Of a DNA stretch of 64,000 bases, positions 2,691 through 59,955 are shown piece after piece. Both the position numbers and the translations under genes were made by a program. Origin of the DNA: Isoetes taiwanensis (taxonomy: Eukaryota > Streptophyta > Lycopodiopsida > Isoetales > Isoetaceae); the NCBI GenBank assembly GCA_021234155.1, contig JAJEKV010000003.1, forward strand, positions 22,473,569 through 22,537,568, written 5' to 3'. The notes beneath the pieces are model-generated. The model did not search any database and was not told the DNA's origin. It saw nothing but the letters and a program-made list of their open reading frames with translations. The first letter of the stretch is position 1; the number at the start of each line of letters is the position of its first letter.

Positions 2691-2696
2691 TTGACT

Positions 2697-39720: not shown

Positions 39721-40653
39721 ATTTAGAAAAGGGACTCTTTGGATGTACTATCTCAATGTGTGGGTCCCTAAGAGAGTTATGGGTCCATAAAGGGGAAAAA
39801 ATTTGGGGTGGTATGATTTGTTACAAGACAAGGTGAGGCAAAGGTACACGATGATTGGCATTCATGCTCCAGAAATGTATTTTCCAGATGCTCATTCAAA
39901 ATGGGGTGTATCCTGACATGGGACCCCTTGTCAGAAGGGATGCTGCGGTCTCTAATCATTGGAGAAAGATATTCCACCACAATAAAGCTTCTTTACTCCA
40001 ATCTTTTAGGTGGATCTGAGTGGCCCAAGTGGAGGCAAAGGACATTGACTCTTTTTGCTACATGAAGATTGCCTCTTAGAACCTTCATGGAATAAAAGGA
40101 GTGTTGAAGAGTGGAAGGATGTTGGCAGCCATCAGAATGAATTCAGACGGGGGAAACTTAGATGTGGTTTTTTTCCGAAGTGTTTTGGGTGTTTTTTTCC
40201 AAAAATTGAGATATTCCCGGCAACAAACTGGAATATTAAGTCACATTAATTCACTGGATCATTGCCGATTGGATCAATGTAGATGCAGACGAAACTGCAT
40301 GTAGACCAGTGATTCTTCACTTTTTGTTCATGATTTGTTTTAACAGTTCATGACATACAAAGTTAAAATATATTTGCAAACATTACTTGTTTTTGATAAT
40401 TTCTTTTAATAGTTCATATAACATAAAGTCTACAAATATTTGTCATTCTTTTTCTGCCTCGTCATCTACATAAATGCATCGTCTTATCCTTTTTTTTGCT
40501 GGTAACAAAATTGATGACTCCATCAGCTCCATAAGGTAGGCTGCTTGAGCTGCATAAGGTGGCAGCATGCTGTTGGCAATGGCAGATCAGTTAGTAATAT
40601 ATGTGAAAAAAAAAATATGAAAGTAATTGAAATATTTCTGAATGAAATACCAA
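39721..40653. other. No supportable gene
   Basis: Broken frames only in 39721-40310, possibly old LINE sequence downstream of the shared repeat. 40310-40650 is AT-rich and would be the 3' flank of the minus-strand methyltransferase-like gene. Confidence 0.4.
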
Positions 40654-43600
40654 CTAGTCATCTGGTTCATCCACATCCTCGGCCACAATGTCTGCTTCAT
40701 CAACATTTCCAGGAATATCTTCAAAGGCATGTTCTTTGACAATTATCTCCTCATTGTTTGCGTGTTTGTATGAAAGACGATTGTCTTTGACATCTTCATA
40801 CATGTCTCGGTCTTGCTCTAGGCCATAATAATGTCTACCACGAATGGCAGATGCCTCCATGAGTGAACCAATACCAGGCATTAGATCTAACACCAATGAA
40901 TTTGCGGGGGAAAAGCTGGATACAATGAACTCCATGAAACAGACTGATTTTTCAAGATTACACCTGTCATTTTTTTTCTTCGATACAAATAACTTCTGTT
41001 CATCTGGCAGGTAATGCACAAGTGTCGATGCATGCTGATTAAGGTCTGCACTGCTGAAGACATTCTTAGTGATCCGTGGTATTTTCAGCCCTGCCCTGGA
41101 ATACACTGTTAAGCGGAGGTGGTTATTGTTAATTGTACCAAGTTCATCTGTAGTGACACCGAAGGGTGTGGAACTGTATATATGGTACAGTCTCCTTTTC
41201 TGCAAATTTCTTTTCTTTGCATTGTAATCGATACGAGGTAGCTGATCATCCGTGCATATGACTATGAAGAAGCCATTGTCATCCATACATAGGTTGGCAA
41301 TGGCAGTGATGTTTTCAATGAAAACGGGGTTGCAGGAATTCCACTATGGAATTGTGGAATGACCACTTGTTGGTAATTGATTTGTAGGAAGATCATAAAA
41401 AACAATGTGGCAGCCCCAATCCCTGTACCATTCCTTTTGTAAGCATGTTCAGCTAATCTATTCTGTTTTCCAAATTCTCGAAGTACCTTAAAAATTGATG
41501 TCTCAGAATCTGATGTGAAACTTGATGTTAAAGCAGATGCACTTGCCCATACATAACCTATAGAGCAATCACTATAGTTTACAGAATCATGCTCAGTAGG
41601 ATTTCCGTATCCTGCTACTATAGAGACCTTACTAAATCTGTTGACGTTTACATCTAGGGTATCGTTATTATCTTCCAAATTCTCGACATTCTCTTCATCT
41701 GGAATGAGAATTTCACGTCTATTTTTTTGTTTTTTTTTTTAACTTCTCCTTGCGTTTTCTTTTTGGATTTTCCGTCTCTGGACTTGACACATCTTTAGAA
41801 TTTGATGGCTTGTTTGAGTCTATATCTGTTTGAGAACATATTGCCCATCTATCCTTCTCTTCCTTTGGATACTCACTTTCTGAAAAATCTAACGACCAGG
41901 GACACTCTTCAATTTCAAATTCTACTAACCTTGTATTGAATCTCATGTTGAGATTAGCTGAGTAGATCCATCCTTGATCATCAGTTTGCTTCCATGGCAA
42001 GACAGCACTTGGTAGTTTGTCCACGTATTTCCTCTGAATAGCATGCTTGATGTACCTGGAATTGCCAATAAATAATAACTGTTAGTGAAGCAATAAGTAT
42101 ACAATGAACACAATGAAGACCGTTCTTTTTGCACAATTAAGAAGATCATGAGCATTATCGTAATCAACAGTGTGGGACATGTGCTTTTCATTGTTCACGG
42201 ATATTTTTTTCCTGTACTCCATTTTCATGTAACGGAACCAGGTATGAACAGTTTCTGTGGTGTTCTCTAAATGAACAAATTCAGGTTCATCCTCTTGTAT
42301 GGCAGTTAGAAGTTCCTTGCTTTTTTTTAGTAAATGCTCCAACCAAGTTTCTTTTTTGATCCATTCATGGAAATCCCTGTCATTACCTGGCATTCTGTAG
42401 CTATTCAACAGGTTTGACTCAGTTGTGATTAGCAATATCCAAATGTTTCTAACATCATTGTCTACTGTTGCCTTGGCCATATCATACAACTTCTCTAGTG
42501 TCAGCTTAAAATCTTTTGTGCTCACATCTTTGGAGGTTACTGCTTTAAGCCATGTGGGTCCCAAGCTAGGGCAAACAATTGCCAAGTACTTATGCAGCTT
42601 ATTTGTCCATCTTCTTCTAACTTCCTTCTCGGATTTTTCTCGTGCTTTTAATTCTGGCATTTTCTGTGTGTGGACCTTCAGCAACAGTTCAATGTCATTT
42701 TCAATATTAGCCTGCACATAGTTGCTGTCAGTTCCCACAACAATCAATAAATTATTTCAGTATCAGATTTAACTTACTTTGTATAAGATTTGTGCTAGCA
42801 TGAATCTAGTCAGAGGGTACCAAGGTTCCTCTCCTAGGACTTTCACTTCTTTTGCTCTAGCTTTTGCTATTTCTTCTTCTGTCACTTCCTTGGTAAACAT
42901 TCTCAAGTCCCTGGTTGCCACCTTGTGCACTGCATACAAAATATCCTTAAGTGTCTCTCATACAACTCCTTTTTCGTTAAGTCTACATGGAAAAAGCATT
43001 CATTTAGTACAAGTAATGGGAAATGAATGATGACTAGTTCCAATTCTTAACTTACTCATTAATTCTTCTCATTGCGGTTACGAGTTCAGCCTCTCTTTTT
43101 CTATCGACCTCCACAAAGGTTGCCTGAGGCATATGTGTATCTCCTATGCATTGGTACGATGGTTCCCGTCTCAGCACAACTGATAGATCAGACCAATGCG
43201 GATTATTGGAAAGTTCCTGCTCAAAGTTTTCGTTCTCCACTTGCCAATTGTCATCCCAAGAACTGATCAATTCCTTGGTAACATGAGTCTCTTTACCCTT
43301 AGGTCCCTTTATAGACAATATGAATTGTCCCTTTTGCATAATATAACCATCTCTTCGTAGAGTATCACGCAGCTGTTGGCAGTTTGGTGTAACCATTCTC
43401 ACAGCCTCATATATTTGTATTCTGCACAATGGAATAAGGGGTAGAGGAGATTCCCTGTTAATCTCCAGCACCTTTAATGTCTGTGATACTTGATTAACAA
43501 TGAATGAAGCCGGTAGCTCATCATTGTCTCCTTCACATTGTTGTGTGGCCTCAACACTCTCCCCTCCCTGTTGTTGCATGACATCAATGGTTTTACCTTT

Positions 43601-43927
43601 ACCTTCATCCGAGTTTACCACATTATCATCTTCCTGAATTTCACAATTATGGGGAGTAGCCACATGAAGATGAGGTTCAGTAGCATCTACGTCATCATAG
43701 TTAGTACTATGGGAGGCCATGTCTGTGCCAACTTCAGTAGCCTCTGAAGTCATCTTTCTGTCAGTAACAATAGAATCAGACTGGGCGATAATCAGAGATT
43801 GAGAATTGTCTCCAGAGTTTGTTGTTGTTGTCTTTTGTTTTCGAGGCTTTCTTGGTGGAGTTCTCATGCGCTCAAAGACGGGACCTTTGTAATCAAGATT
43901 CTTGCGGGTGAAATACATAACCTTCAA
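40654..43927 (-). pseudogene. Multi-exon gene with DNA methyltransferase-like C-terminus
   Basis: Minus-strand exons: A 43927-43056 (acceptor CTGCAG, donor GA/gtaagt); B 42982-42778 (acceptor TGTAG, donor AAA/gtaagt); C from 42711 (acceptor GTGCAG), phases agreeing from A to C; D about 42040-41719; E about 41700-40654. Exon A has a Ser/Asp-rich linker, then a segment (..RMVTPNCQQLRDTLRRDGY..) that faintly resembles ParB/Srx-type domains. Exon E has a possible catalytic block (IVFYDLPTN), then EKSVCFMEFIV and LVLDLMPGIGSLMEA with GRHYYGLEQD. That order (motif IV, 'EK..F...I', motif I, acidic motif II) fits beta-class DNA methyltransferases, but DLPT is not the canonical DPPY and MPGIGS is an atypical motif I. 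Breaks: in-frame TGA at 42958-42960, frameshift in the A-run (T-run on plus) near 41732-41741, in-frame TAG near 41340. It diverges from the plus-strand transposase gene at 45207. Confidence 0.6.
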
Positions 43928-44018
43928 CTGCAGCAACATTAAGTCATCAGGAAAAAAAAAAAACATCAGGAATGCAGAAAAATACTCAGTCAAAACCAGA
44001 ATTTAAACTGCAAAATGT

Positions 44019-44840
44019 TGAACGGCACCATTCAAGATAATGTCGACCATAAAACTCATCAATGAAAACTTCAACGGGACCATTCAAGAATATGTCGATA
44101 CATTGGATCTGATAATTCGAACACAAAACTATAGAATGAAAACTCGAACAATACCGTTCAGGAATTTGTGGATAGATTGAATAGGCTAATTCGAACACAA
44201 GACTCTACAATGAAAACTCAAACGGTACCGTTCAGGAATTTGTGGATAGATCGAATAGGCTAATTCAAACACAAGACTCTGTAATGAAAACTCGAACGGT
44301 ACCGTTCACGAAATTGTGGACAGATTGAATAGGTTAATTCGAACACAATACTATGCAATGAAAACTCGAACGGTACCGTTCAAGAATTTGTGGACAGATT
44401 GAATAGGCTAATTCGAACACAATACTATGCAATGAAAACTCGAACGGTACCGTTCAAGAATTTGTGGACAGATTGAATAGGCTAATTCGAACACAATACT
44501 ATGCAATGAAAACTCGAACGGTACCGTTCAAGAAATTATGAACACATTGAATAGGCTAATTAGAACAGGAAACTCTGCAGCGAACAGAAATTTGGAGCGG
44601 CACCGTTCAAGAAATTGTGGACAGATTGAATAAGCTAATTAGCGCAGGAAACTCTGCATTCAAATTTGGAACGGCACCGTTCAAGAAATTGTGGACGGAT
44701 TGAATAGGCTTATTCGAACATAAATCTGTATCGTGAAAACTCGAATGGCACCGTTCGAGAAAGTGTGAATCGTTTGAATAGGCTTTCGCGAAGATAAAAC
44801 TGTATCATGTAAACTTGAACGGCACCGTTGAAGAAATGAA
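44019..44840. repeat. Array of about 12 repeats of 74 bp with palindromic core
   Basis: Units of about 72-76 bp each carry GAACGGTACCGTTC or a variant (GGCACCGTTC, GGGACCATTC) followed by 'aagaaattgtggacagattgaataggctaattcgaacac'. Cores lie near 44020, 44072, 44147, 44219, 44293, 44367, 44441, 44515, 44597, 44668, 44745 and 44817. The central four carry the perfect 14-bp palindrome and the outer ones decay. The array lies immediately 5' of exon A of the minus-strand gene, between it and a candidate first exon with donor at about 44907, and also between that gene and the divergent transposase gene. It could be a binding-site array, promoter or intron. Confidence 0.9.
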
Positions 44841-45206
44841 TGAACATGAGAAAACTTGCGAATGAAAATGTTCGCATTGCAGTAGAAAGAAAAAAAGTGA
44901 TACCAACCTGTGTTCTTGCTCTCTGGCCTTGGTGACGGATCAATCGAAGAGCACATCATCCGCTTCGGGTATAAGATTTACTGTTCAACCGATTCAAACG
45001 TTTTAATGAAAATACCCACTTATTATAATTAGGTGAGAACACTAAAATGCATTATTGCTTGGTTAGTGGGATTGAAATTCGCTAGCCGTTGGCTATGTAA
45101 CTGACAGTAGTGCACCCTTGAATTACGCAAACATAATTTGTAATTAACCGTTGGAACTGTCATATTAAAATGAGTTTAAAGGGGAGTACAAATTTTACTT
45201 TGCCAT

Positions 45207-45955
45207 ATGGCGTCTTATCTTACAGCGAAAGCTTCAGGTGTACAACAAATACTGTTGCTTCCTTTCCAAAACGGAGTATGTGAGGTTAGTACAGCAGATT
45301 TGTCTAGAACTTTCAATGTACTACCTAGCAATTTATATATGATTCAAAGTTCGACAGATGTGGAATCCAATGTAGCTAGCACTGTGGTTGTTGAATCTGT
45401 TAGTGCTTCTGGACTAGGAATTTTTAAGGTTGAGGAAAGAAATGGCACGGTTGTGGAGGTACATGGTATTCCTGCTGAAGGCAAATCTCCTCTATGTCCA
45501 GTTGTCCTTGATTCACCCACTACTACAAAAATAGGTAGAAATGGCACAAAAGTGACCTTTATGCTCCGCCTTTTTACAGAGCATAAACGTCACTTTTGTG
45601 CCATTTATGACATTTGTGCTCCCCAAATGGCACAAAAGTGACGTTTATGCTTCGTAAAAGGGCGGAGCATAAAGGTCACTTTTGTGCCATTTCTACCTAT
45701 TTTTGTAGTAGTGACCCCATTCTTCTAATGGAGCAACTACATCCCAATGCACCTCTACATACTTAAAGATAATATCATGTCCCATTAACAACAAACTTAA
45801 AAAATTGTTAATGAAAATTGGAAAACCAAGACAGGTGGATTGTTTGCCACAATATTATAATGGAAAAATTGTTTTTGAGTTGCCAGGTCAGTCCATCAGT
45901 AAAACCCCGATGGAAGATATGCAACATTCGGTTGATCCACACGTATGGATGCATG
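45207..45955 (+). pseudogene. 5' part of a Mutator-like transposase gene, split by a MITE
   Basis: An ATG at 45207 opens a frame to the MITE at 45518. Skipping 45518-45716 (MITE plus one ACC copy), the same frame stays open from 45717 to 45955, where the 9-kb CACTA-type element begins. Skipping that element plus one ATG copy, it continues in frame at 54961. The 5' part is about 183 codons. It has no named domain, but it ends in a conserved-looking region (FELPGQSISKTPMEDM) just before the zinc-binding segment of the 3' part. The open frame through both junctions is strong evidence for one ancestral coding exon, because random sequence this AT-rich would be expected to contain stops. Confidence 0.8.
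45518..45713. mobile_element. CACTA-type MITE, 196 bp
   Basis: Terminal inverted repeats start CACTACTACAAAAATAGG and extend almost to the centre, so most of the element is foldback. The 3-bp duplication ACC flanks it (45515-45517 and 45714-45716). The CAC...GTG ends and 3-bp duplication are characteristic of the CACTA (En/Spm) superfamily. It has no coding capacity and shifts the frame of the transposase gene by 199 bp. Confidence 0.95.
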
Positions 45956-45989
45956 CACATCAAAAATGATGCCCATATCCTCCTTAAAA

Positions 45990-46440
45990 TCCTCCAAAAA
46001 AAACCCCTTAAAATCCCCATTTTCGTGGAATGGACATGATTTTCAGAAACGGGGTATTTGGCCACAATCCCCCCGTTGTGATTTTGTTGATTAATATCCC
46101 CTTATTTGAATTTTTTTTATATCCCCCATTGCCATATGCAATGGTCATATCCCTTTTCTCACAAATAATGTTCATACCCCTTTCTAGAAACAATCCCCCT
46201 TTGCGATTTTGTAGTTTAATATACCCTTATTCCGTTCATACCCCTCTTCTCAACCATCCTCCTTTTATGTTTAATATCCCCTTATGTTTAATATCCTCTT
46301 ATGTTTAATATCCCTTATTCCGTTCATACTCCTTTTATGTTTATACTCCTTTACCATTCATACTCCTTTTATGTTTAATATCCCCTTATTCCGTTCATAC
46401 CCCTCTTCTCAACCATCCTCCTTTAAGCCTTAAATTGAGA
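45990..46440. repeat. Left subterminal repeats of the CACTA element
   Basis: Short T/C-rich words recur ('tttaatatccccttatt', 'ccgttcatacccctcttctc', 'aaccatcctccttt'). A longer block at about 46219-46264 recurs at about 46379-46424. These are probably transposase-binding subterminal repeats, by analogy with the superfamily. Confidence 0.75.
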
Positions 46441-47164
46441 GATATGATGCATTTTTGCAAGTAAAAAGTATAATCATACACTCAACTTTTTCAACAACAA
46501 TATAATTTCAAACGCATCTTTTCAAATTGGACATTCATATGTTTGTAGAAGAGAATTCCACACATTGTGTTCATTATATCTTGGATAAATTCTCAAACTG
46601 CTTAGATACATTTTATATGCAGATAGACTACAAGCTTGATTAAAACAAACTCCCATTCTTTACTTGCTCTGTAACCACCATCTCTAGTCATGTCGTTTGG
46701 CTTCACATGCATGTTTCTCTATAGTTTCTGCAAGACAAAAATATAACACAAACATAAAACATCAATGTTTATCATATATAACAAAATTAATTGCATCTGT
46801 GCTGTTTTTTTGCAAAAAAGGACTGCCCTGAATTGTACATAAATAGTAGCTGTTCACTTATAGCAATTCATGTCTGTGATTTCGTCCCTAGTAGACAAGG
46901 ATAAAATTGTCTCATTCCTTATTCTTTCATTCTAACCTTTTTAGAAGAAGCAGCATTCCATTGTACTCAACCTTTGAGCCATGACCGCTTCTGCAAATGC
47001 ATCCACAAGAGAGGAAGGAGACGTTGCAATCAATCATGAGATAGTATCGAGTTTGAGTAACTTGATGGAAGAGGTCATACATTGAAGTATTCATAATAAG
47101 GAAGGGCGAAAAAACCTAAACGACAGCCTGTTTCCCTTGTATGGGGTGAATGATTAAGCTTAAC

Positions 47165-47411
47165 TGAAAATAAGAGAGCTTGATATTGAAAAGCAATAGC
47201 AGAAATAACAAGGCATAAAGAAATAAGGGCCATCCCAGAACCAAGGAAGCGGCAAAGCGGCAACCAAGATATCCTGAGGTGTCCTCTTATCCTGAAGGCA
47301 TGCCAAATTTGGCTGCTGAACTTTAGGGCTCTGGAACACTAATAGGCAGATAACATCACAGACTATTTTTGTTACGTCTGTTTGTTATAACCTTTACAGC
47401 ATGTTCCAACA
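47165..47411 (-). repeat. 3' LTR of the copia element
   Basis: 247 bp, identical by eye to 51853-52099. In element orientation it begins TGTTGGAACATG and ends TCTTATTTTCA. Confidence 0.97.
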
Positions 47412-47420
47412 CTCCCCCTC
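47412..47420 (-). promoter_or_regulatory. Copia polypurine tract
   Basis: Element-strand GAGGGGGAG directly abuts the 3' LTR, the expected primer site for plus-strand DNA synthesis. A second similar purine run is at about 47477-47485. Confidence 0.85.
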
Positions 47421-47567
47421 AAATCAGACTTAACAAAACAAATCTAACAACTATCAATGACAGAACATGAAACTGCTCCCCCTCAAATGAAAGTGCAGTA
47501 TGTTTAACTTTACAACAAGAAAACTGAAACTGAACTGCTCCTCTTCATGAAATTACTTCTTGCATGG

Positions 47568-50500
47568 TTATGCGGTGGTCATGCCTAGTTCTGCAATGCA
47601 CCTGCAGAAAGGTTTTTGTCCCAAAGGCTTAGTAAACATATCAGCGGTCATTTTATCTGTCCTGAGATATTCCACAACAATCTTTCCTTCCGCTATCTTT
47701 TCCCTTGTGAAATGGTGCTGAACCTGTATGTGCTTAGCCTTGGAAAAGTTAGTAGGATTCTTTGCAAGTGACAGAGCTGCTTTATTGTCATTGAATATGA
47801 CTGTGGCTTGTGTTTGAGTGGTATTAAGCTCCTTAAGAATCCTTCGAAGCCATATAGCTTCCTTAGTTGCTGATGCTAGTGCAATATATTCTGATTCACA
47901 GCTGGACACGGCGGTTGACTTTTGCTTTTTGCTGGACCATGACACTGCTCCCCCTTGCAGCACAAAGCAAAATCCACTTCGAGATTTTCTGTCTGTATGA
48001 TCCCCTGCATGATCAGCATCAGCATACCCTTCAAGTATAAGTGAACTCCCTGCATGAAATGTGATCCCAAGACTCTGTGTGCCTTGGAGGTATCGAAGCA
48101 AGCGTTTCAACCCTTGCCAATGCTGTGGCTGGGGTTTTTCCAAATGTTGACTTAAGCTTATCACTGCTTGTGAAATATCAGGCCTTGTACAAACCATGAA
48201 GTGCATCAATGAGCCCACTATGCTTCTGTACCCAATGGCTTGCATTTCAGAATTTATGCCTTTTAAAGAGTTTACACATTGAATGGTAGCAGGGGTTGTA
48301 ACAGACTTACTTGAGTCCATGTTACATTTGTAGAGTAGGGACTGTATAGCTTTGTTTTGATGCAACGTGATGCTACAAGTGGCTGGATCCCTGCATACCT
48401 GTATTCCAAGAAAGTACCTTAGTGTCCCAAGGTCTGTCATGTGAAAGCGTTGGTTGAGGGCAGCTTGGGTGTCCTGCATCAATGTCTTACAGTTGCTGGC
48501 CAGGATCAGATCATCCACGTAAAGAACTATAAGCAACATTTTGGATCCATCAAACTTAAAGTATATGTTCCAGTCTGCTTGACTGCGAGAAAAGCCCATT
48601 TGAGTAAAGAATTGATGAATCGTGTGGTACCACTGTCGTGATGATTGCCTGAGTCCATAAATGGCCCTTTTAAGCTTGTACACTAACTGTTCTTGTCCCT
48701 TTTGAACAAACCCTGCTGCTTGCTTCATGTAGACTTCTTCCTTAAGTTTGCCATTGAGGAAGGCAGTCTTGACGTCCATTTGTTGTAAGTCTAGGCCATG
48801 GGCTACAGCTAAGGCGATGACCAATCTAACAGAGGTGAGGCGTGCAACCGGAGCAAAAGTTTCGTGAAAGTCTATGCCTGGTACTTGTGAGTATCCTTTG
48901 GCTACCAAGCGTGCCTTGAATCTATCAATGTTCCCTTGTTCATCATATTTTACCTTGTAAACCCATTTGCAAGCAACAGCCTTTCTATTAGCAGGAAGAT
49001 GGCACAAGTCCCAAGTATCATTGTCCAATAAGGACTGATATTCTTCAGTCATGGCATTGTGCCATTCTTTATGATGCATGCTGGCCATTGCCTCTCGAAA
49101 GTGGACAGGCTCATCTACTGGTGCATTACTATGAAAAGCAATGTAAGAGGCAGTTTTACCTGATCGGGATTCGATATAAGCTTGCATTCGATCTGTGATC
49201 TGCCTGCTCCTTGTGGACCTCCTTAATGGCACAGCAGAGAGCTCCTCATTGTCTTCAAGGTCAGTCTCCTCTGGTTCAGAAGGGATATCTTCCATGTCAT
49301 TAGCATCAGCTTCTTCTAGTGGGACACCATGCTTTTGGTCTGCATCTTCTTTAGCTTCATCATCTGCATTTGCCTCATACCATTCAAGCTTGCTTGATTT
49401 CTCCTTCTTTCCAAAGAAGAACGTGTGTTCATCAAACTCAACACTTCGTCTCACTATGATTTTCTTCGTGAGTGGAACATACAAGCGATATCCTTTTGTG
49501 TGATCATCATAGCCGACAAACATGCATTCTACTGCCCTCATGGAGAGTTTACCTCGAGGGCGTTCTTGCTGGCTCAAGTGTGCATACGCCCTGCAGCCGA
49601 AGATCTTCAATTCATGCACATCCGGTTTGTGGCCTGACCACATTTCTTCGGGAACCACATTTGGGTTGGCTTTAGTGGGTATGCGATTGAGCAGGTAGCA
49701 TGCCGTGTGTACCGCTTCAGCCCAAAAGATTGGATCAATTCCTCTTCCATGGATCATTGCACGAGCACATTCCAATATGGTGCGGTTTTTTCTCTCAACC
49801 ACACCGTTTTGTTGATGTTCATAGGCCACTGACTTTTGGTGGTGGATTCCAGCATCTTGTAGAAAGGTGCTGAACTTGGTATTGAGAAATTCCCTGCCCT
49901 GATCAGTTCTGATGGTTTTGACCACCTGTTCGATTTGCTTTTCCACCTCCCTCTTCCATTTGATGAAAGTATTGAAAGCCTCTGATTTGTGTTTAAGGAA
50001 GAACACCCAGTTCTTCCTACTAAAGTCATCGATCACCAGCATGAAGTATTTGGATCCTCCAAGTGATTTTACACTGGCTGGTCCCCACAAATCGATGTGC
50101 AACAGTTCCAACTGTTTGGTTGCCCTTTTTGTTTTCTCCTTCTTATAGGGTTTCCGTTTGAGCTTACCCAATACACACCCTTCACAAATGACATGAGGCT
50201 TGGAAATCTTTGGTAGACCAGTGACTAATTCCTGCGCCTTCATCTGTTTGATGAGAGGATAGTTAGCATGCCCTAATCGTTCATGCCATGTCTTGGCCTT
50301 TTGCAGTTCTACTGCTGTCAGTGCTGTGCTAGAGTTGGCAGTCCAACTAAGCTGGTATATGTTGCCGGCCCTTGTCCCTGTGGCAATGATTTCCTTCCTG
50401 TCCTTCACAATGCATCTGCCATTGCCAAAATTGATATGAAATCCCGCATCATCCATTTTTGATATGGAAAGCAAGTTCGCCTCAAGGTCAGGCACGTGAA

Positions 50501-51785
50501 GGACATTCTTTAGGTGCAACGACCCCTGTGGCAAACTGAGCTTTACACTCCCAACTCCTGCAATGTTCAGTTTTCCCTTGCCTATTCTCACTTTTCTCCC
50601 TGTCTTATTGGGCTGGTAATCCAGAAACAACTCCTTTTGTCGGGTCATGTGGTCGCTTGCACCTGAGTCTAGATACCAGACTCCCTGAATTATGTCACTT
50701 GCAATAAGACATGAGGCTGTGGCACTTGTGCATCTCCACATAATATACATTACTATGGCTTGCAGCACACTAAACAAATATGGAAATATGAACGTGAATT
50801 TGCCAAGTCTGCTAGCTGTAGATTCTGTTGTTGCAAAAAATGCCCTTCCAGCCGAAACAATTGAATCATCATCTGATGATTCTGAATTCTCTTCTTCTGA
50901 GGAGCTGCTTTTGCTTGCTTTATGTGCCCTCGGATCTTCCTTTTTCTTCTTGGATAGTCCCCTTTCTTTCTCCTGGCTGCGTTCTTTTCCTTTGTCTCGT
51001 GAAGCTTTAGGTTCAGACTTCCTCTTTCTCCTATCTGGCTCAGGACAATTCCTTCCTATATGCCCAACTTTGTTGCAATTAAAGCATTTTCTTGAATCCT
51101 CACGATTCCCCATAAATGCCTGGTTTTCCTTGTGTCCAGGTTTCTTGTTGCCTCCCTGATTTCTTTCTTCAAGAATGAGTTGTTGACATGCCCACTCTAA
51201 TTCAACCTTTTCAGCTGAGCCAATAATGTTCTTCACATTATTGTAGGTTGGAGGAAGACCTAGCAGCAATGCTCCTACAATAACATCTTCATCAAGAGTT
51301 TTCTTCATGCCCTGTAACTGCTTGGCTGCTTGGCGTATGATACCCATGTACTCTTCCATGGAGTCACAATCCTTGAGCTTGGTGGTGAACACTACACTAT
51401 ACAGATTTGCTTGGACAGAAAAATGCCCTTTAATGTATGATTTCTTGAGTTGTTCCCATGCTTCTCTTGCAGATGCAGCTTCTGCAACCTGTGGCATAAG
51501 AGTATCATCAAGATACTTGAGGATTCTACTCTTAGCTGTCCAGTCTTTCTGCAACCACTTGGCTAAAGCTTGCCTTTCAGCTTCTGTCTTTACAGAATCT
51601 TCAGCTGCAGCTTCTCCCTTAACCACTTGCGCTGTCGTTGGCACCGTGGTTGTGCCTTTTGCACGCATATGAGGTCTGGGCTCATCTCCTGATACAATCC
51701 CCCATAATCCCTTTTCACAGAGCTTCGTCTGCACCTTGAGAAACCAGTGATAGGAATTGGTGTGGTTTAGTGGCTCAATCCTCAT
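47568..51785 (-). CDS. Copia gag-pol polyprotein, 1405 aa
   Basis: One uninterrupted frame encodes, in order: Gag; a CCHC zinc knuckle (CFNCNKVGHIGRNC, about residues 234-247); aspartic protease (DSGASDHM, about 373-380); integrase with an HHCC zinc region (from about 498), catalytic-core Asp in DLWGP (about 564), Asp in RTDQGREF (about 628) and Glu in NGVVERKNRT (about 663); reverse transcriptase with YVDDLILA (about 1088); and RNase H with DADHAGD (about 1258) and SSCESEYIAL (about 1290). Integrase before reverse transcriptase defines Ty1/copia. I chose the ATG at 51785 because the upstream part of the open frame, back to 51932, runs through the 5' LTR and primer-binding site. A hydrophobic stretch between zinc knuckle and protease (near residue 335) is unusual. 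All catalytic motifs are present, so it may be competent. Confidence 0.97.
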   Translation of the reverse strand: MRIEPLNHTNSYHWFLKVQTKLCEKGLWGIVSGDEPRPHMRAKGTTTVPTTAQVVKGEAAAEDSVKTEAERQALAKWLQKDWTAKSRILKYLDDTLMPQVAEAASAREAWEQLKKSYIKGHFSVQANLYSVVFTTKLKDCDSMEEYMGIIRQAAKQLQGMKKTLDEDVIVGALLLGLPPTYNNVKNIIGSAEKVELEWACQQLILEERNQGGNKKPGHKENQAFMGNREDSRKCFNCNKVGHIGRNCPEPDRRKRKSEPKASRDKGKERSQEKERGLSKKKKEDPRAHKASKSSSSEEENSESSDDDSIVSAGRAFFATTESTASRLGKFTFIFPYLFSVLQAIVMYIMWRCTSATASCLIASDIIQGVWYLDSGASDHMTRQKELFLDYQPNKTGRKVRIGKGKLNIAGVGSVKLSLPQGSLHLKNVLHVPDLEANLLSISKMDDAGFHINFGNGRCIVKDRKEIIATGTRAGNIYQLSWTANSSTALTAVELQKAKTWHERLGHANYPLIKQMKAQELVTGLPKISKPHVICEGCVLGKLKRKPYKKEKTKRATKQLELLHIDLWGPASVKSLGGSKYFMLVIDDFSRKNWVFFLKHKSEAFNTFIKWKREVEKQIEQVVKTIRTDQGREFLNTKFSTFLQDAGIHHQKSVAYEHQQNGVVERKNRTILECARAMIHGRGIDPIFWAEAVHTACYLLNRIPTKANPNVVPEEMWSGHKPDVHELKIFGCRAYAHLSQQERPRGKLSMRAVECMFVGYDDHTKGYRLYVPLTKKIIVRRSVEFDEHTFFFGKKEKSSKLEWYEANADDEAKEDADQKHGVPLEEADANDMEDIPSEPEETDLEDNEELSAVPLRRSTRSRQITDRMQAYIESRSGKTASYIAFHSNAPVDEPVHFREAMASMHHKEWHNAMTEEYQSLLDNDTWDLCHLPANRKAVACKWVYKVKYDEQGNIDRFKARLVAKGYSQVPGIDFHETFAPVARLTSVRLVIALAVAHGLDLQQMDVKTAFLNGKLKEEVYMKQAAGFVQKGQEQLVYKLKRAIYGLRQSSRQWYHTIHQFFTQMGFSRSQADWNIYFKFDGSKMLLIVLYVDDLILASNCKTLMQDTQAALNQRFHMTDLGTLRYFLGIQVCRDPATCSITLHQNKAIQSLLYKCNMDSSKSVTTPATIQCVNSLKGINSEMQAIGYRSIVGSLMHFMVCTRPDISQAVISLSQHLEKPQPQHWQGLKRLLRYLQGTQSLGITFHAGSSLILEGYADADHAGDHTDRKSRSGFCFVLQGGAVSWSSKKQKSTAVSSCESEYIALASATKEAIWLRRILKELNTTQTQATVIFNDNKAALSLAKNPTNFSKAKHIQVQHHFTREKIAEGKIVVEYLRTDKMTADMFTKPLGQKPFCRCIAELGMTTA

Positions 51786-51840
51786 GATTAGAGCACAGCT
51801 TAGCCTGCCTTTCAACTTCCTCGGGCCCCGGATCGTGGCC

Positions 51841-51852
51841 GCTCTGATACCA
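51841..51852 (-). promoter_or_regulatory. Copia primer-binding site (initiator tRNA-Met)
   Basis: Element-strand TGGTATCAGAGC directly follows the 5' LTR. It is complementary to the 3' end of plant initiator tRNA-Met, the standard primer of plant copia elements. Confidence 0.95.
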
Positions 51853-52099
51853 TGAAAATAAGAGAGCTTGATATTGAAAAGCAATAGCAGAAATAACAAG
51901 GCATAAAGAAATAAGGGCCATCCCAGAACCAAGGAAGCGGCAAAGCGGCAACCAAGATATCCTGAGGTGTCCTCTTATCCTGAAGGCATGCCAAATTTGG
52001 CTGCTGAACTTTAGGGCTCTGGAACACTAATAGGCAGATAACATCACAGACTATTTTTGTTACGTCTGTTTGTTATAACCTTTACAGCATGTTCCAACA
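51853..52099 (-). repeat. 5' LTR of the copia element
   Basis: 247 bp, identical by eye to the 3' LTR. It should carry the element promoter; I did not identify a confident TATA box. Confidence 0.97.
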
Positions 52100-52104
52100 T
52101 TAAC

Positions 52105-54280
52105 TATGGTCAGTTATGGAGATGTTCTGCAAGGAGGAGAAGAAACCACAGACGCATCTACGGCAAAACTCAAAAAGCCACTTGTTAAGTCATATGTCCA
52201 TAGCTAGTGCATTTGGGGCTCGTTCAGGTTTTTATAAAAAACTGGATATAAGATAAGTTAATGAAATGCCGTGGACTTGTGTCCGTGATCGAACCTGAAT
52301 AGGCAAAAAATTTGGCACTAAAACAAATAGTTCTTCTTGCTTTTACGCACTGCTATATTGCATGAAAAAGGAGAGGGACAAGCTACAGGTGCCAAGTAAA
52401 AAAGCACAGAAAGGCCCTCCAAAAAAAGAGAACTGGGTACAAAATTACAGGGAACGGAAAGAAGCTGATTTGGTCTGTGTTCATAAAATGGAGATTTTGG
52501 ATGGATCTAAAAGGCCTGATTCAAAACCAAATGATAATATCTAAAAGAGATGGACTACAGGTAACTTATCTCTCCCATTCACAGAATAGCAACAAAAAAA
52601 GAAAAGTCTTCCCATATTTTCAACGCCTCAACAGACAGGCCTCAAGACAATTCACTAAACAGAAATGTGATTTACATATCTGCAGATCGATTCAAGGTCA
52701 TATACTTCGATGTAAATGTGGCATCTCTCAGAGTCCCAATGAATCTGCAATGTGATCTGTGTAAGAAAAGAAATCGACTAGATGAAGGCCAAGAAGATGA
52801 CATTCAAAAATATACAAATCAAGAAGATGAAGGCCAAGAAGATGACATTCAAGAAGATGACAAATCGGGAGCAGAGCCTTTGTGCCTTCAGAAACAACGT
52901 GCTTAGCAAGCTCACCAGGAAAGATAAACCTTACAGCATTTTTTGCAATGGCCGCATGCTTCTCCGCGGCCCTGGGTTCCTTGGCAGCTTCCGCTCTGAA
53001 TCTGCGGCAGATTTGTGCGCCACAGGGAAGCTTGAATCTCGGCGGCAACAAGAAAAAAAATGGTCGCAAAAAAGCTCGGAAAACGGAGAAGGCAACACCA
53101 GATTCGTGCAAAAGAACATTTTTCCAGCGGAAAAAAGGTAGGTCTCTTTTTTGTTTGTCTTTCTTCTCTAACAAAATAAAACATTAACTACAACATTCGA
53201 TTATCCCAATGTTTATAGATCCCATGTGTGGAGCCAAGGTGATGCACTAACGTTTTCTTGGACCTCATTCAACCATGCCCTTTATTTCTATTTAGGTAGC
53301 CAAAATGATGCTCAATGTTTTGTTTTAATGGGTCAACTTCTAGGATTCTTAGACAAGACGAGACAGCACAAATTTTATGGTTCTATAACTATAATTTGTA
53401 GTGTTTGATTCCATCACTATAATGGGGTGTCTCTTATTAAATCCCCCCACCCCCATGAAACTAAAATGAAAGCTAGTCTTATGATGGGCTTCATATAGAC
53501 GGCAAATGATGGGCTACATATAATTCACGGGCTTGAGTCCGTGAATTAAGCTTTGCATACGATCATGCCCACCCCACATAAACAGGGGAACGCCATAGCA
53601 ATTTGTAATTAAGCGACATGCCATCTAAGATTTAGGTAAAGTTCACGGACTTGAGTCCGTGGTCTGGTAGTGGGAATGCCAATTAAGCTTTGAGTTGATT
53701 CATGGGTTTGAGTTTTTCATTTTAGCTAGTTCACCCTTCATGGAATGAAACTCTAGCTTGAGGTTATGTCTAGACCTATGGTTCATATACTTGAGTCTAC
53801 ATAAGTATAGACATAAGTTACCAACCTCATGTGAATTGCTCAAGCAACTTGCTTATCTTGGTTAATGCTTATATATTATATGATTCTCATAGGGATGTGC
53901 TAGTGTTGGAGAGCTGAAGAGTTACTACAAGGCAAACTACTTCTATCGAGGTAACAAAGATCCATTTACAAAGGCATGGATCCTTTCCTTAGATATAATA
54001 TAGCCTTTGGAAAGACCAGGTTTATTAACTATTTAGTTCAAAAGTTCATCCATGTGCCATACGATGATACAAAGATTCTAGGGTATGAGCTAATTCAATC
54101 ACTTACGGACCAACATGTAATCTTTTGACTGGTATAATAAGTATTAATAAGATTATAGCAAAGGTTTAAATGTTATTATTTACATTAATGGTGTTCAGCA
54201 ACACCCACTTTCTAAAGCAAGAATCACTGAAATATCAACTTAAATATAATCCTCATCCTCCTTTTCCTTCATTCCCTTTT
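52105..54280. other. Interior of the CACTA-type element, no transposase found
   Basis: Frames at 52362-52906 and 52782-53141 are Lys/Glu-rich and low-complexity, with a roughly 45-bp repeat ('gatgaaggccaagaagatgacattcaa' and variants, about 52780-52862). 52880-53184 is open on both strands but has no domain. Around 53525-53670 the words 'cacgg(g/a)cttgagtccgtg' form small palindromes. Nothing resembles a TNP2 or TNPA protein. Confidence 0.5.
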
Positions 54281-54930
54281 TATGTGAATCCCCATTTCTC
54301 CTCGTCCCCCCATTCTAAATTGCAATTCCCCCATTAGGCCCTCATTACCCTTACTAATCGTATCCCCCATTCTAAATTGCAATTCCCCATTGTAAATTGC
54401 AATCCTCCATTGCTCCCTCATTACCCCTACTAACCCTGACTACCCCATTTCTCCTCATCCCCCATTCTTCATTTTTTTAGTAGAAATCCCCATATTCTAA
54501 ATTGCAATCCTCCTATTACTCATTCATTACCCCCAGTAGCCCTGACTACCCCATTTCTCTGCATCCCCCATTTTTCATCTCTTACAGAAAATCCCCATGT
54601 TCTAAAATTGCAATCCCCATTACTCCCTTACCCCTACTAACCCTAACTACCCCGTTTCTCCTCATCCCCTATTCTTTATTTTTGTTTTAAGGAATCCCCA
54701 TGTTCTAAATTGCAATCCCCTTATTATTCCATCATTATCCCTAGTACCCCTGACTACCCCATTTCTCCTCATCCTCCATTCTTCATTTTTTTATAGAAAA
54801 TCCCCGTGTTGTAAATTGCAATCCCCCTATTACTCCCTCAACACCCCTAACATAGAACTAAAATCCTCTTCTTCTCAAAAAATTATCCTTTGCTCGTCAA
54901 TCCCCCATTTCCAGAAGGGGGTATTTTAAG
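54280..54930. repeat. Right subterminal repeats of the CACTA element
   Basis: A unit of about 105-120 bp containing 'ccccat(gt)tctaaattgcaat', 'attactccctcattacccc', 'gactaccccatttctcctcat' and 'cccccattcttcattttttt' is repeated about five times up to the right inverted repeat. The C-rich character mirrors the left subterminal region, though the sequences differ. Confidence 0.85.
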
Positions 54931-54960
54931 GAGGATGTGGGCATCATTTTTGATGTGATG

Positions 54961-57590
54961 CCAACAGGACTGACATACCTAGTTTTGATGGGACAGTCAG
55001 GTTGTCATATTGTGGTGGTCACTTGCAATGTAAAAACATGTCTTGTGATCATTTATTGACTAAAGGCAACCACAATGAGTTGCACTGGAGAGGTGCATTG
55101 CAGAGAAGACCTGAGATTGGTGAACTAACTTCATTCCATGGATCTATAAGTTGTGAATACTGTCATCTGCCACCTACTTGTGTGGCACGTTGTTTAGTAT
55201 CCACGTACTATTGTTTGCCTAACAGAATCTCTGAAACAAGACTAGCTGTCCATACTGGTGAGCACACACATCCCATTAAAAAGGCAGAATGCAGAAGTCA
55301 AGTCAAGCGAATGAGGGACCTAGTTAACTCATACACAACCTTACATCTTGGTGGGCCTAGACATAAACAGAATGAATTAGCTATGGATGAAATTGTTCGT
55401 TCAATTATGGGCTCCTCAGATGGAGACAGTGTTGAGAAGATGGATACAGATCAAATAAACGAGTTGTTGACAAGGTTGGAACCATTATGCAATCAGAGAA
55501 GGTATGACATTGATATTACGTAATAAATTACATTAACAAGTTATTTGATAAGGAGAATATTGCTTGTGTAGGTTGAAGAGATGGATTGATGATGCGAGAA
55601 GAAGAAATAGGCAATGTTCAGATGATATTTCTGGTTTATTGGAGTTAAAGAAAAGAAGCAAATATGAATATTTCCATGGATCTAAATTCCCTTACCAGCT
55701 TCATGATCCGCTAAATGAACGCTGTTACATTTTTAAAATGTCTACAACTGGTCCTGGATCAGGGGTTGATTTGGTCAACAGGATGAGACCAACAGGTGAT
55801 CTTAGCAACAGTTGGGTGCATTTTGATCACGTCAAACGAATTCAAGGGTGGACAACCTTAGCTTGTCATGTGTATGATCACAAGTAAGCGGTTTGCGAAA
55901 ATCAAATGAAAAAAGTTCATTGATAAGTTTTTAACAATCTTGTTTTACGTGCAGAATTAAAGCCTTGTTGACAATTGCGATTTGTGACATGAAGACAGAG
56001 GATGCAGAGGTACAGAAAAAGTTTTGGAGGAAGTTTAATAAGGTCATGGTAGCAAAAGGTTATTCAAAAGCTGAGTTTTTTGCGTTCATGGCAGACGAAG
56101 CTCAACCTAATTGGATTGCAGTCAGGGAAGTTTTCTTCAATGGGGAAACTAGACCCGAAAAAGAGCATTCCTATTACTTCCATTTCGAGCAATGCATGAT
56201 CGATATACAGAAAGACACTTGCCAAAGGAATATTGGGACGCCCATAAGGATCTGTGTAGAAAATGGCATCAATCAGCAACTGAGGAGGAAGCAGATAAAA
56301 TATACCACTCCATAATGGATTGGTGGGTGGGCAAGACTACAGATAATCATATTAAAGTTTTGAGTTTTTGGCCATCATGGTGGCATCATAGGATAAGCAG
56401 ATGGGGTAGGTTTATGGTCAACAAACAGAATTGGCAGACAGCAATACATATTCCACAAACAAACTTATCAGAGACAAAGCACAGGAGTTGGTTTTCAGAA
56501 AACAAGAATAATTTTTCCTTGTATGATGCCTCCCTCTTTGATCTCACAGAAGCTGTACTTCAGAGTACCAAGTACAAATCATTTCTAGACTGCAACTATT
56601 TAGGACTGGTCCAGGTGTATCAGATCTTTTTAGTAGACTGCAAAATCGTCAAAGCAGTGGTGCCAAGGCTAAGGAGGTAACCAACATCATAAAGTTGGAA
56701 GCAGAAATGGCAGGCTTTGAAGAGCATGACAGCGGTGCAGGAGGTAACTTGAAGACTGTATACAAGAAGCAACGTTCCATAGACACAGTTGATCTCACAG
56801 CAGAATCAGGAACTCATCGTCCCGACAAACATGCAACTAATGTTAGCAGAGTACGTAAGGATGATCCTGTGGTGAGGACTCTTTTCAATGATTCTTTAGA
56901 AGAGAAGACTGTGCACAGGTCTCTTTGGGCTATTCGAAGAACAGAAGCAAGTAGTAAGGTCAGGTGTCAAGGGAGGAAGTCAGAACATGGAAAAAAATGT
57001 AATAATCCAATTAACGTGGGTATACAACCAACAGTTGCTTCTTGCTTTTATGGGTTAAGAGAATTCCGGGGACAACGAGTGTCATAAATGATGTGGTTCT
57101 GTCCTACTACAGTTGAATGCACATGGTTTCCAGATAAGTCTTTGGTGTGTCCCCCACAAAGACCACCATTGTGGCCTGTGGATAAAGATACTGACTTGAC
57201 GAATGAAGAGATTGAGAAACTCAGAGCAGCGAGGTTTTTGTTGGGTGGTAGATCTCAATCTAGCTTGACTGCAGCCAATGCAGCCTCGAGTATGCAAGCA
57301 CGTAGATCCACCATGGCAGGGTCTGCTAGCTCTGTAAGGAGCAGAACTAAAATGACAAGGAAGGGGAAGGTTGTGAATTATAGGAAGGAAATGAATGGAG
57401 AGACGAAGGTCAGATTTGAGCATCAAAGAGAATGAAGGTGGATTTTGTGCAAGAGAAGACCTACTCAAAAAATAAACATGTGGACTATGTAGTCAAACGT
57501 GAAGATAGCACATACATTGTATCCATTAAGGATGAGCCAGAATGCAGTTGTCCGGATTTCATCCACATGGAAAGGTGTTGATCCAAGATT
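54961..57590 (+). pseudogene. 3' part of a Mutator-like transposase gene
   Basis: Continues the exon cut at 45955. A zinc-binding segment (YCGGHLQCKNMSC... then CEYC, C, H) is followed by HTGEHTHP. Two short introns are supported by phase: 55502-55571 and 55884-55954. The core has HFDHVKRIQGWTTLACHVYDHK (first Asp at 55825), then DMKTED and FMADEAQPNW (second Asp at 56094), a spacing and motif set typical of MULE-type DDE transposases. A later HWWV/DWWVGK-like helical region follows, then at 57543 a SWIM-like CSCPDFIHME..C, the usual C-terminal zinc finger of MULE/FAR1 proteins. Breaks: frameshift near 56190, another near 56600, in-frame TAA at 57085-57087, frameshift near 57430, and the second half of the SWIM finger lost. 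No terminal inverted repeats were found for the parent element. Confidence 0.75.
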
Positions 57591-57790
57591 TGCATCTTGA
57601 TCAACACCCAGATATAAATACTTGTGGTCTGGACCTCCAGAGTTGTTTGATGGCACAACTCAGCCTTTCAAAAGACAACTCAACCGTAAACGAACAATTC
57701 AAGCTCCTTGCACAGCTTGTTTGCAAGGAGATCAGTTTGATGCGGATGAAGGAAAATAATAATAAAATAGATGAAAATGCTCAATAAGTT

Positions 57791-59225
57791 TTGAGCTAGA
57801 TTTAGGCTTTAAAAGGATTGAAGAAACAAACAACCGATCTTTTATATTCCATACAAAAATAATGGGATTATCAAAGCACTGGATCAACAATAATTTTTAT
57901 AGACCAAGGCAACTGAATTTCAAAAAAGGATGGATAATAACAAAGTATTTATTCTCCGACAAAGCTACAATGCAAGACCTCTTGCAGAATGGCCCGTGAG
58001 TTTTTCTTTCTCATCAACCTGCTTTATGCGTTTTCAAGCACCGTAAACGAAACCGAAACCGACCTCATCTTACGCCGTTCAATCTTGCCCCTTGTTTGGA
58101 TATACCTAAATTTGGACATCTCATTCTAGGCTTTCCCCAAATAAATAGCATTTTTTCTTGGCACGGAACATGGCTAAATGCATTTGTCTCTACGCTTTCT
58201 CAAACATCTTCATTTCGCGAGCGTAGTTGCATGGACAAGTTCTTGTAGGTCTTGGGGAGAGAAATGGAGAAAGAAATATGAATAGAACTAGAAAAAATTT
58301 GTGCAATAGTGGAAACCGAATTTGCCAACAATGGGTCCAATTGAAGAAAAATGTGAGGCAACGCACAATTGAAAAAACAGAGGATGTTGGCCACGAAAGT
58401 AGGCCAACAAAAGGATAAGAGGATTCATACCTTGCAAGCACTTGTTGTACGTATACAATCAAGTGCTTAGAATCGATCCAGTATCCGACCCTGCAGTGAT
58501 CCAGCCAATGCTAACTGAAGCTTTGTTAGAGCGTATACTCCCGAAGTAGTTGTCAGTAGTAGATAAGTATATGCATTGTTATTCTTTATTCACTTTGGTT
58601 TACAGTTCGAGAACAGTTGTGACGTAAGTTGGCTGAGTTTATAAGTGTCATGTTATGATGTCTTATTAATGAAAAGTAGTGACCATGTGAATCAATTTAA
58701 CAATTGCAAAGACGTCTGTCATTTTCTCTGCAGCATTTTTTTTACTTAAAACATTCTGGTTGTTTCATGTACAATTCTGGTACAGCAAATAACCAATCAT
58801 AAAATTGCATACTCCCATACAATTCAAATCCATTCATAAAATTTATACAATTGCCTACATTCATCCAATTTTAATCCATTCACACAATTACCTGCACTAG
58901 CTGCCCTTGTCATATACACAAATCCTATAAGCGCCAAAACATGTACAGTAAAAAAATAAGTTAGGTATTAAAATGGAAGTAGAAGCAAAAACTTTTTTAC
59001 ATTCAAAATATTTTCGTGGCCGTTTGGCCTTACATCATAACATCCTTTTGGAAATTTCAATGCCCGGAGGCTTCAACTATTCACAATAAAAAAGCCCGAA
59101 GGCTTGCAGTCATATGGTAAAAAAAAAGCCCGTAGGCATGTACATTCCGGAGGCAAGTTGGTATGAAGCTGGAGGCTAAGCAAGAAAAAAAAAAAAAAAA
59201 AAAACGTGCTCTGCCCTAACAAATT
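57791..59225. other. No supportable gene
   Basis: AT-rich. A basic 63-codon frame at 58227-58418 is open, but no domain or splice chain supports it. At 59040-59165 the phrase 'gcccg.aggc' recurs four times, and an A-run lies at about 59187-59204. Confidence 0.45.
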
Positions 59226-59601
59226 TCATTCATTTGCATCACCATCTGCAACACAAAGAATCAAGAAGTAACTGTTAGTTGATTGTTTAAGAAAACAAAT
59301 AAAACATGCATGTACCATTTATCAGCACCATGAACTCTTCAAAATCAGCGGATTCGTCTTCAATTTCTTCATCTTCTTCCTAGCCTTCAAGAACACCTGT
59401 GACAAACTCCTGCTCCGAAATTTCCTCTGATTCCTCATTTTCTGATTCCTCATCAGAGGAATCAGAGGTATCAGACGAATCGGAAGCATTCCTAGCAAGT
59501 AAAGTGGGCAGCGGAGGGAACAGCGGAGGGAACACCTCTTCCATGCCTAGTAGGCGCCTCTTGGAGGACACCTCCGGCTCCTCACTAGCTGCTCGCTTCA
59601 T
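59226..59601 (-). CDS. Small acidic Ser/Glu-rich protein gene with one intron
   Basis: The ATG at 59601 opens a frame with a basic start (MKRAASEEPEVSSKRRLLG), a Pro-rich LFPPLP segment, then an Asp/Ser/Glu-rich stretch. Exon 1 (59601-59316) has donor ATG/gtacat and exon 2 (59245-59226) follows acceptor TTGCAG. The 70-bp intron keeps phase and the frame ends at TGA. An in-frame TAG at 59380-59382 interrupts exon 1, so either translation stops there (73 aa) or the gene is a pseudogene of an about 101-aa protein. Acidic frame on both sides of the TAG favours a mutated stop. A TATA-like element lies about 100 bp upstream. Function unknown; nuclear location is only a guess from the KR-rich and acidic character. 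Confidence 0.5.
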
Positions 59602-59700
59602 GGCGAAGGAATTGGGCGAAGGAATTGAAATTGGACGGAGGAATTGGGTGAAGGATTAGGCGGACAATGGGCAGAGAATGGGTGCCAAAATAGGGTGGAA

Positions 59701-59708
59701 TAGATATA
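59701..59708 (-). promoter_or_regulatory. Possible TATA box of the small acidic gene
   Basis: Minus-strand TATATCTA lies about 100 bp upstream of the ATG at 59601, a normal distance for a plant core promoter with a short leader. Confidence 0.4.
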
Positions 59709-59955
59709 GGCTGGATTAGACGTGAAAATCGTAGGAATGATTCGAATTCCAGTCCTATCAACCGTCATTAAATGCCATTATGTGCATGTCTCGAAATTTG
59801 AGCCATGCATAATGCCATAAATATCCAATATCTTCCTTTTTTAACCTTATTCCTAAACCTATATGATTTGAGTTTAACCTAAAAATGAACACTGATATAA
59901 TTCGAATTGAACATACAATTTAATACCACAATGCTACGTCACACTATGTCGATAA

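Follow-up and report, generated by a model that had tools for sequence, protein, structure and literature searches.

A divergent accessory gene with a methyltransferase-like domain in Mutator-like elements of the lycophyte Isoetes taiwanensis

Introduction

What could a gene that ends in a domain resembling bacterial-type amino-methyltransferases do for a mobile element of a land plant? The question is raised by a 64,000-nucleotide stretch of the Isoetes taiwanensis genome (contig JAJEKV010000003.1, positions 22,473,569 to 22,537,568 of the forward strand; called here the window), in which an earlier note made from the letters alone had described such a gene as the neighbour of a transposon. 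Here we report that it is an accessory gene of a Mutator-like element (MULE), transcribed away from the transposase gene. The best explanation of the observations taken as a whole is that the accessory protein likely acts on its own element, in the manner of VANC of the VANDAL MULEs, a reading to which we give a probability of roughly 0.6.

Results

The element occupies positions 40149-60018 (19.87 kb, three nested insertions counted in) and lies between two exact copies of the target-site duplication (TSD) AATTCAGAC, at 40140-40148 and 60019-60027. Its borders were set by aligning close copies to the window; homology, in particular to the copy represented by L021 and L017 together, picks up again past the nested insertions and extends to 60018, and the TSD and this homology mark the element as complete. 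The left terminal region (40149-40230, + strand) begins with GGGGGAAACTTAGATGTGG, an end shared by all five copies compared (the window and L017-L020), and the right terminal region (59950-60018, - strand) is, as judged by eye, loosely inverted relative to it. The terminal inverted repeats, loose in the window element, measure 30 bp at 90% in L026, a 6665-bp element of a distant family (the 31% family below) with its own 9-bp TSD, GACCAGAGA; the copy L021+L017 is likewise bounded by a 9-bp TSD, ACAGACCTC. The duplication is thus 9 bp long in the three copies with both ends known, the range for MULEs being 8-11 bp. An element ending at 45956 was considered and ruled out by a piece of transposase at 54945-55520 and by the homology resuming at 54958. 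Taken together, these data make it nearly certain that the element is a MULE with two divergent genes. The association with a mobile element stated in the earlier note stands; the gene is not a neighbour of the element, as the note had it, and lies inside it.

The accessory gene runs on the - strand from about 43927 to 40654, opposite to the transposase gene, from which it is separated by an array of 74-bp repeats (43969-44885). It consists of an N-terminal exon (43052-43927), a small middle exon (42769-42957), middle coding frames (41719-42756) that gave no meaningful family match, and a methyltransferase-domain exon (40654-41738) in which motif IV, FYDLPTN, precedes motif I, VLDLMPGIGS, all on the - strand. 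A 229-codon frame at 40654-41343 holds VLDLMPGIGS, GRHYYGLEQD and the EK..F...I segment, and FYDLPTN is found about 35-60 bases upstream of it; the four motifs listed in the earlier note are all where it placed them. The window copy of the gene is a broken relic, whereas its relatives keep open frames: the WDGNHRT segment present in the N-terminal exon of L017 is gone, the reading frame breaks ahead of motif IV, leaving FYDLPTN out of frame with the preceding coding frame, and a TAG stop parts FYDLPTN from the last frame.

The assembly searched comprises 1,658,258,908 bases in 1110 contigs. The 40654-41343 frame gave 163 matches in it (150 scored of 509 candidates), consisting of a close family at 73-95% identity over long matches and of groups near 40% and near 31%. 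Among the matches listed, many relatives are stop-free in frames of 300-780 codons. In six of six relatives examined, the N-terminal exon is followed by a GT donor (GTAAGT in five, GTGAGT in L025) and the next large exon is preceded by an AG acceptor, at matching places, and the exon chain proposed in the earlier note is thereby shown to be real. A small exon may lie between these GT and AG borders, so the two perhaps do not delimit one intron. The possibility of a host gene or of bacterial contamination was ruled out by the copies in the same genome, the splice borders and the TSDs.

The transposase gene lies on the + strand. Its 5' part (45207-45956) is split by an insertion, the gene resumes beyond a 9-kb insertion (54958-57575; 95% to L017/L021), and its 3' end (58410-58549) follows a further insertion that splits the SWIM region, which is seen in L021. 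The SWIM finger exceeds the Pfam cut-off in L021 (23.4 bits, cut-off 19.6) and, by 0.1 bit, in L024. The middle part of the L024 transposase matched the NCBIfam IS256 transposase model (E=2.1e-7, 30.3 bits, cut-off 150), and none of the Pfam MULE models matched in the ten transposase pieces scanned.

The relative orientation of the two genes was examined on matches from searches of the same genome, for which 128 of 163 methyltransferase, 101 of 110 transposase and 97 of 108 third-search matches were typed, second pieces of already kept copies being removed by hand; the methyltransferase entries are among the matches listed. A methyltransferase or N-terminal-exon match was found within 8 kb of 48 of the 101 transposase matches, and the arrangement was divergent in all 48, against 0.24 expected by chance. 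At wider limits it was divergent in 53 of 54 cases (15 kb) and in 55 of 57 (25 kb). The other half of the transposase matches, with no partner among the matches listed, may reflect decay or a partner outside them. Within 8 kb of the 128 methyltransferase matches, all 45 pairs had the N-terminal exon upstream of the methyltransferase exon and sharing its strand.

Selection on both genes was estimated as the ratio of nonsynonymous to synonymous substitution rates (dN/dS), by simple counting between copies. In the 31% and 40% families, the N-terminal exon gave a dN/dS of 0.08-0.27 and the methyltransferase exon one of 0.12-0.31. Values for the last exon in the window family were 0.16-0.27, except for the window-L017 pair (0.61). 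The transposase gave 0.11-0.25. Among 20 further MULE-type copies, the median was 0.23 for the 29 usable of 190 pairs (dS 0.05-1.5), 79 pairs being saturated and the remaining non-usable ones lying outside that dS range; three pairs at 0.8-1.0 (highest 1.01) all include the frame-shifted L086. Judged by these ratios, the accessory gene is under purifying selection in relatives down to about 31% identity.

The C-terminal domain was then compared with known families. By itself, the 40654-41343 frame gave 29.3 bits (E=1e-6) with Pfam PF01555, whose curated cut-off is 26.7, in an alignment that runs from position 42 to 219 of the 221-position profile. PF01555 was matched at E<=0.01 by seven of the eight members of an alignment of the MULE-type domain (A4) and by all 17 members of a deeper one (A10, including 14 chosen from 20 newly fetched copies; best 1.1e-9), some matches lying below the curated cut-off, such as that of L025 at 16.6 bits. 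The A4 profile found nothing better than E=0.2 in the PDB. The A10 profile retrieved the amino-methyltransferases 9c3u, 8urk, DpnA (5hek and 5hfj) and 2zie at E=0.0012-0.0076, followed in rank by other methyltransferases at E 0.16 and above, and aligned with three phage enzymes in hhalign at E=2.7e-8. These PDB and phage-enzyme matches span the motif X/I half. The order is permuted, motif IV preceding motif I, and motif IV was assigned by position and by its conserved D-x-P, in the absence of a significant alignment. These profile matches show homology between the domain and the permuted beta-class amino-methyltransferases, an assignment that the earlier note had made from the order of the motifs. 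Structure prediction of the window frame alone gave a predicted local distance difference test score (pLDDT) of 31, too low to be used.

The expectation that intact copies would keep a DPPY-type motif was not borne out. In 23 copies (the 20 newly fetched ones, L023, L025 and L019), motif IV is DLPTN in 19 cases and DFPTN in the other four. Motif I is more variable in the same copies (DLLTGTGS in six, DLFAGSAP in five, DLFAGTGS in four, DLLAGTGS in three and five single forms) and reads DLMPGIGS in the window. Given this non-canonical catalytic motif, we do not file the MULE-type protein as an active amino-methyltransferase. Among 15 listed of 120 records, phage enzymes are about 27-36% identical across part of the domain and none of them carries the N-terminal exon; no ParB model matched in the three phage proteins scanned. 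Pattern scans of genome_contigs and viral_contigs, made with patterns of the DUF7869-linked type described below, revealed no relative that would point to a bacterial or viral donor.

Several of the 74-bp repeats between the divergent genes of the window contain the palindrome GAACGGT(A/G)CCGTTC, four of them as the exact 14-mer GAACGGTACCGTTC. This 14-mer has 33 sites in the 1.66-Gb assembly, 31 of which are within 8 kb of a copy of the window family.

A second transposon type with a comparable gene came to light in the genome search with PF01555 (150 scored of 1444 candidates), where the eight loci cut out from the best matches all carry another gene, linked to DUF7869 (PF25273, a domain of unknown function). 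Its N-terminal exon contains GGNHSFKA and is followed by D[LI]PYGF (six of six aligned copies) and, in most cases, by DAFSGSGTT. In larger stretches around three such loci (L028-L030), the accessory gene and a DUF7869-type gene (PF25273; E=9.8e-52 for the L030 copy) point away from each other, the latter being, by eye, a remnant only in L028. L028 and L029 are bounded by inverted ends of the AACA type; their apparent 4-bp duplications (ATCC, ATAT) were assigned by eye and are weak evidence. Genome-wide, 18 of 90 N-terminal matches have a DUF7869 match within 10 kb, all 18 divergent against 0.16 expected, and 18 of 150 methyltransferase matches do so, 17 of them divergent (at 15 kb, 24 and 22, respectively). 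These counts are lower bounds, the DUF7869 matches being 150 scored of 9908 candidates. An N-terminal match accompanies 32 of the 150 methyltransferase matches, in every case on the same strand with the methyltransferase match downstream. In this type, eight of 13 pairs were saturated and the other five gave dN/dS of 0.06-0.23. The methyltransferase domains of the two types align in hhalign at E=1.7e-8, which is compatible with one capture or with two. The DUF7869 type would be a better candidate than the MULE type for real N6-methyladenine (6mA) or N4-methylcytosine (4mC).

The DUF7869 type also carries palindromes. GTGTATTCCGGAATACAC, a perfect palindrome of 18 bp, has 2585 sites genome-wide, against none for its reversed control and about 0.02 expected. 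It recurs every 41-42 bp between the divergent genes in L029 and L030 (e.g. L030 3171-3527, in gene orientation) and, in L029, also in a probable intron that separates two coding frames within the accessory gene; in L028 there are two copies, at a spacing of 26 bp. Among 50 listed sites, 17 are within 10 kb of one of nine typed gene matches and 40 lie no more than 5 kb from a further site.

The resemblance of the MULE-type N-terminal part to a ParB/Srx fold, which the earlier note had called faint, was not confirmed in library or profile tests. Alignments of the N-terminal domains of the MULE type (A1 and the deeper A7) and of the DUF7869-linked type (A2 and the deeper A8) were each compared with the PDB; A7 and A8, which exclude the stop-containing L039 and L055, were also compared with PHROGs. 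For the MULE type, no ParB match was obtained in family-library scans or in PDB or PHROGs profile searches, the best PHROG being one of unknown function (5/22, E=0.0079). The DUF7869-linked N-terminus gave weak ParB matches at E<=0.1 (phrog_723, 7/20, best 0.0024; phrog_1033, 5/20, best 0.0011) behind a PHROG of unknown function (16/20 members, best 0.00033), and a weak match to the ParB model TIGR03764 (E=0.039). A genome search with PF02195 returned one sub-cut-off match elsewhere (E=1.49) and none at the DUF7869-linked type. Between the two types, hhalign aligned the N-terminal domains in the GNH segment only (E=0.2). With E. coli YbdM and phage P1 ParB as controls and 13 other proteins as decoys, neither control stood out among the 15 for A7; YbdM ranked first of 15 for A8 (E=0.0084, next 0.013), a match that was not counted, as it covers 9 residues only, away from the GNH segment.

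The three nested insertions of the window element are of different kinds. The first (45517-45713), with CACTACTACAAAAATAGG-type ends (CACTA-like), is not found in L017, and the third (57576-58409) lies within the SWIM region. The second (45957-54957, about 9 kb), bounded by inverted ends of the ACATCAAAAATGATGCCCAYATCCTCCTTAAAAT type, seems to be a further DNA transposon into which a Copia element, possibly a young one, has inserted; the unbroken polyprotein frame of this Copia element (47568-51974, - strand; 1468 codons) includes domains for gag, integrase and reverse transcriptase. Short direct repeats of about 17 bp, of the GTTTAATATCCCCTTAT type, occur at 46214-46433 in this insertion. Between the transposase end and the terminus, the window family has a small acidic frame, a remnant in the window (59240-59603, - strand) and longer in L021 (4257-4733, +); L026 has only about 260 bp there. 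L018 (1526-1996, +) and also L019 carry an extra frame close to the methyltransferase end, oriented like the transposase gene and absent from the window copy, and the L018 frame had no informative family match. Finally, L002 has a SET-domain frame (2495-3445, +; PF00856, E=2.2e-6), about 1 kb or less from its methyltransferase copy, that may be part of another element.

Discussion

That selection has kept the accessory gene suggests a role in marking or controlling the DNA of the element itself. The transposase and accessory genes start from a shared central region and run apart. We propose that the accessory protein would return to its own element, which in the window family it would probably reach by way of the palindromic array that separates the two genes. 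There it would modify or occupy the element DNA, and silencing by host cytosine methylation would thereby be kept off or reversed, as it is by VANC for the VANDAL elements of Arabidopsis. Parts of this proposal differ in strength. That the protein is a self-targeted regulator of some kind is probable; that anti-silencing is its main effect is tentative and rather less likely than not.

Several observations weigh against a VANC-like self-targeting role. The catalytic motif DPPY, or more broadly (D/N/S)PP(Y/F/W), is present in none of the 23 MULE-type copies. The reversed control of GAACGGTACCGTTC has 36 sites genome-wide; being as frequent as the palindrome itself, it indicates that the location of the palindrome is special and its number is not. 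Clustered palindromes exceeded all 20 shuffles in only five of 15 sequences (the window, L017, L029, L030 and L003), and L018 has four near forms of the palindrome, yet does not exceed all 20 shuffles. The 40% and 31% MULE families have no comparable palindrome array, their repeats being short and unlike, which weakens any general rule. The VANC domains DUF1985 and DUF287 were not found in a Pfam scan of six window frames, and the L025 transposase frame had no NCBIfam match. ParB proteins load onto palindromic parS sites, which makes the palindromes suggestive; judged by profile comparison of the N-terminal domains, "ParB-like" is a working name only.

The main alternative to VANC-like self-targeting is a regulator that keeps the methyltransferase fold for DNA binding after losing methylation and that, for instance, binds the array to control both divergent promoters. 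It would account for the fixation of D[LF]PTN in place of DPPY and for the changes that several families show in motif I (DLLTGTGS, DLFAGSAP, and DLMPGIGS in the window) while purifying selection persists nonetheless. However, part of the family keeps DLFAGTGS, the cofactor-binding half still matches known enzymes, and the DUF7869-linked cousins retain D[LI]PYGF in the six copies aligned; we consider this alternative unlikely, though it is the strongest of those weighed. Less likely still, the protein might methylate element DNA within transposition itself, for example by timing or directing the cut, and not against silencing. The close coupling of the accessory and transposase genes and the similar constraint on both would fit such a role, but the palindromes, located within the accessory gene or in the space that parts it from the transposase gene, are not terminal, and nothing found points to the ends. 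MULEs tend to pick up host gene fragments (PMC6446971), but it is very improbable that the accessory gene is captured cargo of no use to the element, given dN/dS values mostly far below 1, a layout common to several families and conserved splice borders.

A bolder extension of self-targeting is that two unrelated transposon types in one plant would each have a private marking system, in which an amino-methyltransferase-type protein acts on the element's own palindromes (GAACGGTACCGTTC in the MULE, GTGTATTCCGGAATACAC in the DUF7869 type) and writes 6mA or 4mC, or some other chemistry with D[LF]PTN, against silencing by 5-methylcytosine (5mC). We regard it as speculative and rather improbable. 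If self-marking or unmasking were true, transposons of a land plant would have turned bacterial-type DNA modification into a weapon of their arms race, with many copies spread over two element types. The invariant D[LF]PTN would be a natural experiment on how far the active site of an amino-methyltransferase can change under selection. The idea is directly testable: nanopore reads went into the I. taiwanensis assembly (PMC8566536), and if their signals were retained, the modifications 6mA, 4mC and 5mC could be called from them at palindrome positions.

VANC is alike in being a MULE accessory gene and in having family-specific motifs in tandem repeats of non-coding element DNA; it binds such motifs in introns and upstream regions of its own elements, leading to loss of methylation (PMC5735166, PMC10398659). 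VANC differs in having DUF1985 and DUF287, where the window frames hold a methyltransferase-like domain instead. Fungal TET/JBP genes, found in several DNA transposon superfamilies, are alike as DNA-modifying enzymes on unrelated transposon types, but are dioxygenases and not amino-methyltransferases (PMC12730594). Retrotransposons carry DNA methyltransferases of Dnmt types or, in DIRS elements, Dam-like genes, with purifying selection reported for the Dnmt domains; they differ from the present case in being retrotransposons with C5 or Dam-like enzymes (PMC5890265). N4CMT of bdelloid rotifers (PF01555) and the 4mC enzyme of Marchantia, the latter said to have no additional N- or C-terminal domains, are bacterial-type amino-methyltransferases in eukaryotes, but are described as host genes and not as transposon genes (PMC8885841). 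The word methyltransferase does not occur in a MULE survey, which tables a SET domain for some members (PMC6446971), or in a 2026 review on plant gene capture (PMC13317346), and among the open-licence literature no paper was found using the name DUF7869 or PF25273.

Related systems are known from algae, where ParB-methyltransferase proteins of transposons have been described, such as that of Sola1-1_Ec32 of Ectocarpus, together with green and red algal cases (PMC12477816). Like the gene reported here, they lie on the strand opposite to the transposase and have an N4C/N6A-type methyltransferase domain. Reference 50 of the paper on these algal proteins is reportedly Iyer and colleagues 2011. The earlier note had supposed that a protein of this kind would be unusual in a plant mobile element; the expectation is half right, the kind being already described in algae, whereas no land-plant and no MULE case was among the open-licence papers listed in the searches made. 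The hosts differ, being brown, red and green algae, with Sola1 as the brown algal element, against a lycophyte with MULE and DUF7869 elements here. Compared by description only, the MULE type further differs by its D[LF]PTN motif and by an unconfirmed ParB-like part. What is new is the land-plant host, the MULE and DUF7869 carriers, the DxPTN motif and the palindromes, within a kind of transposon protein already known from algae.

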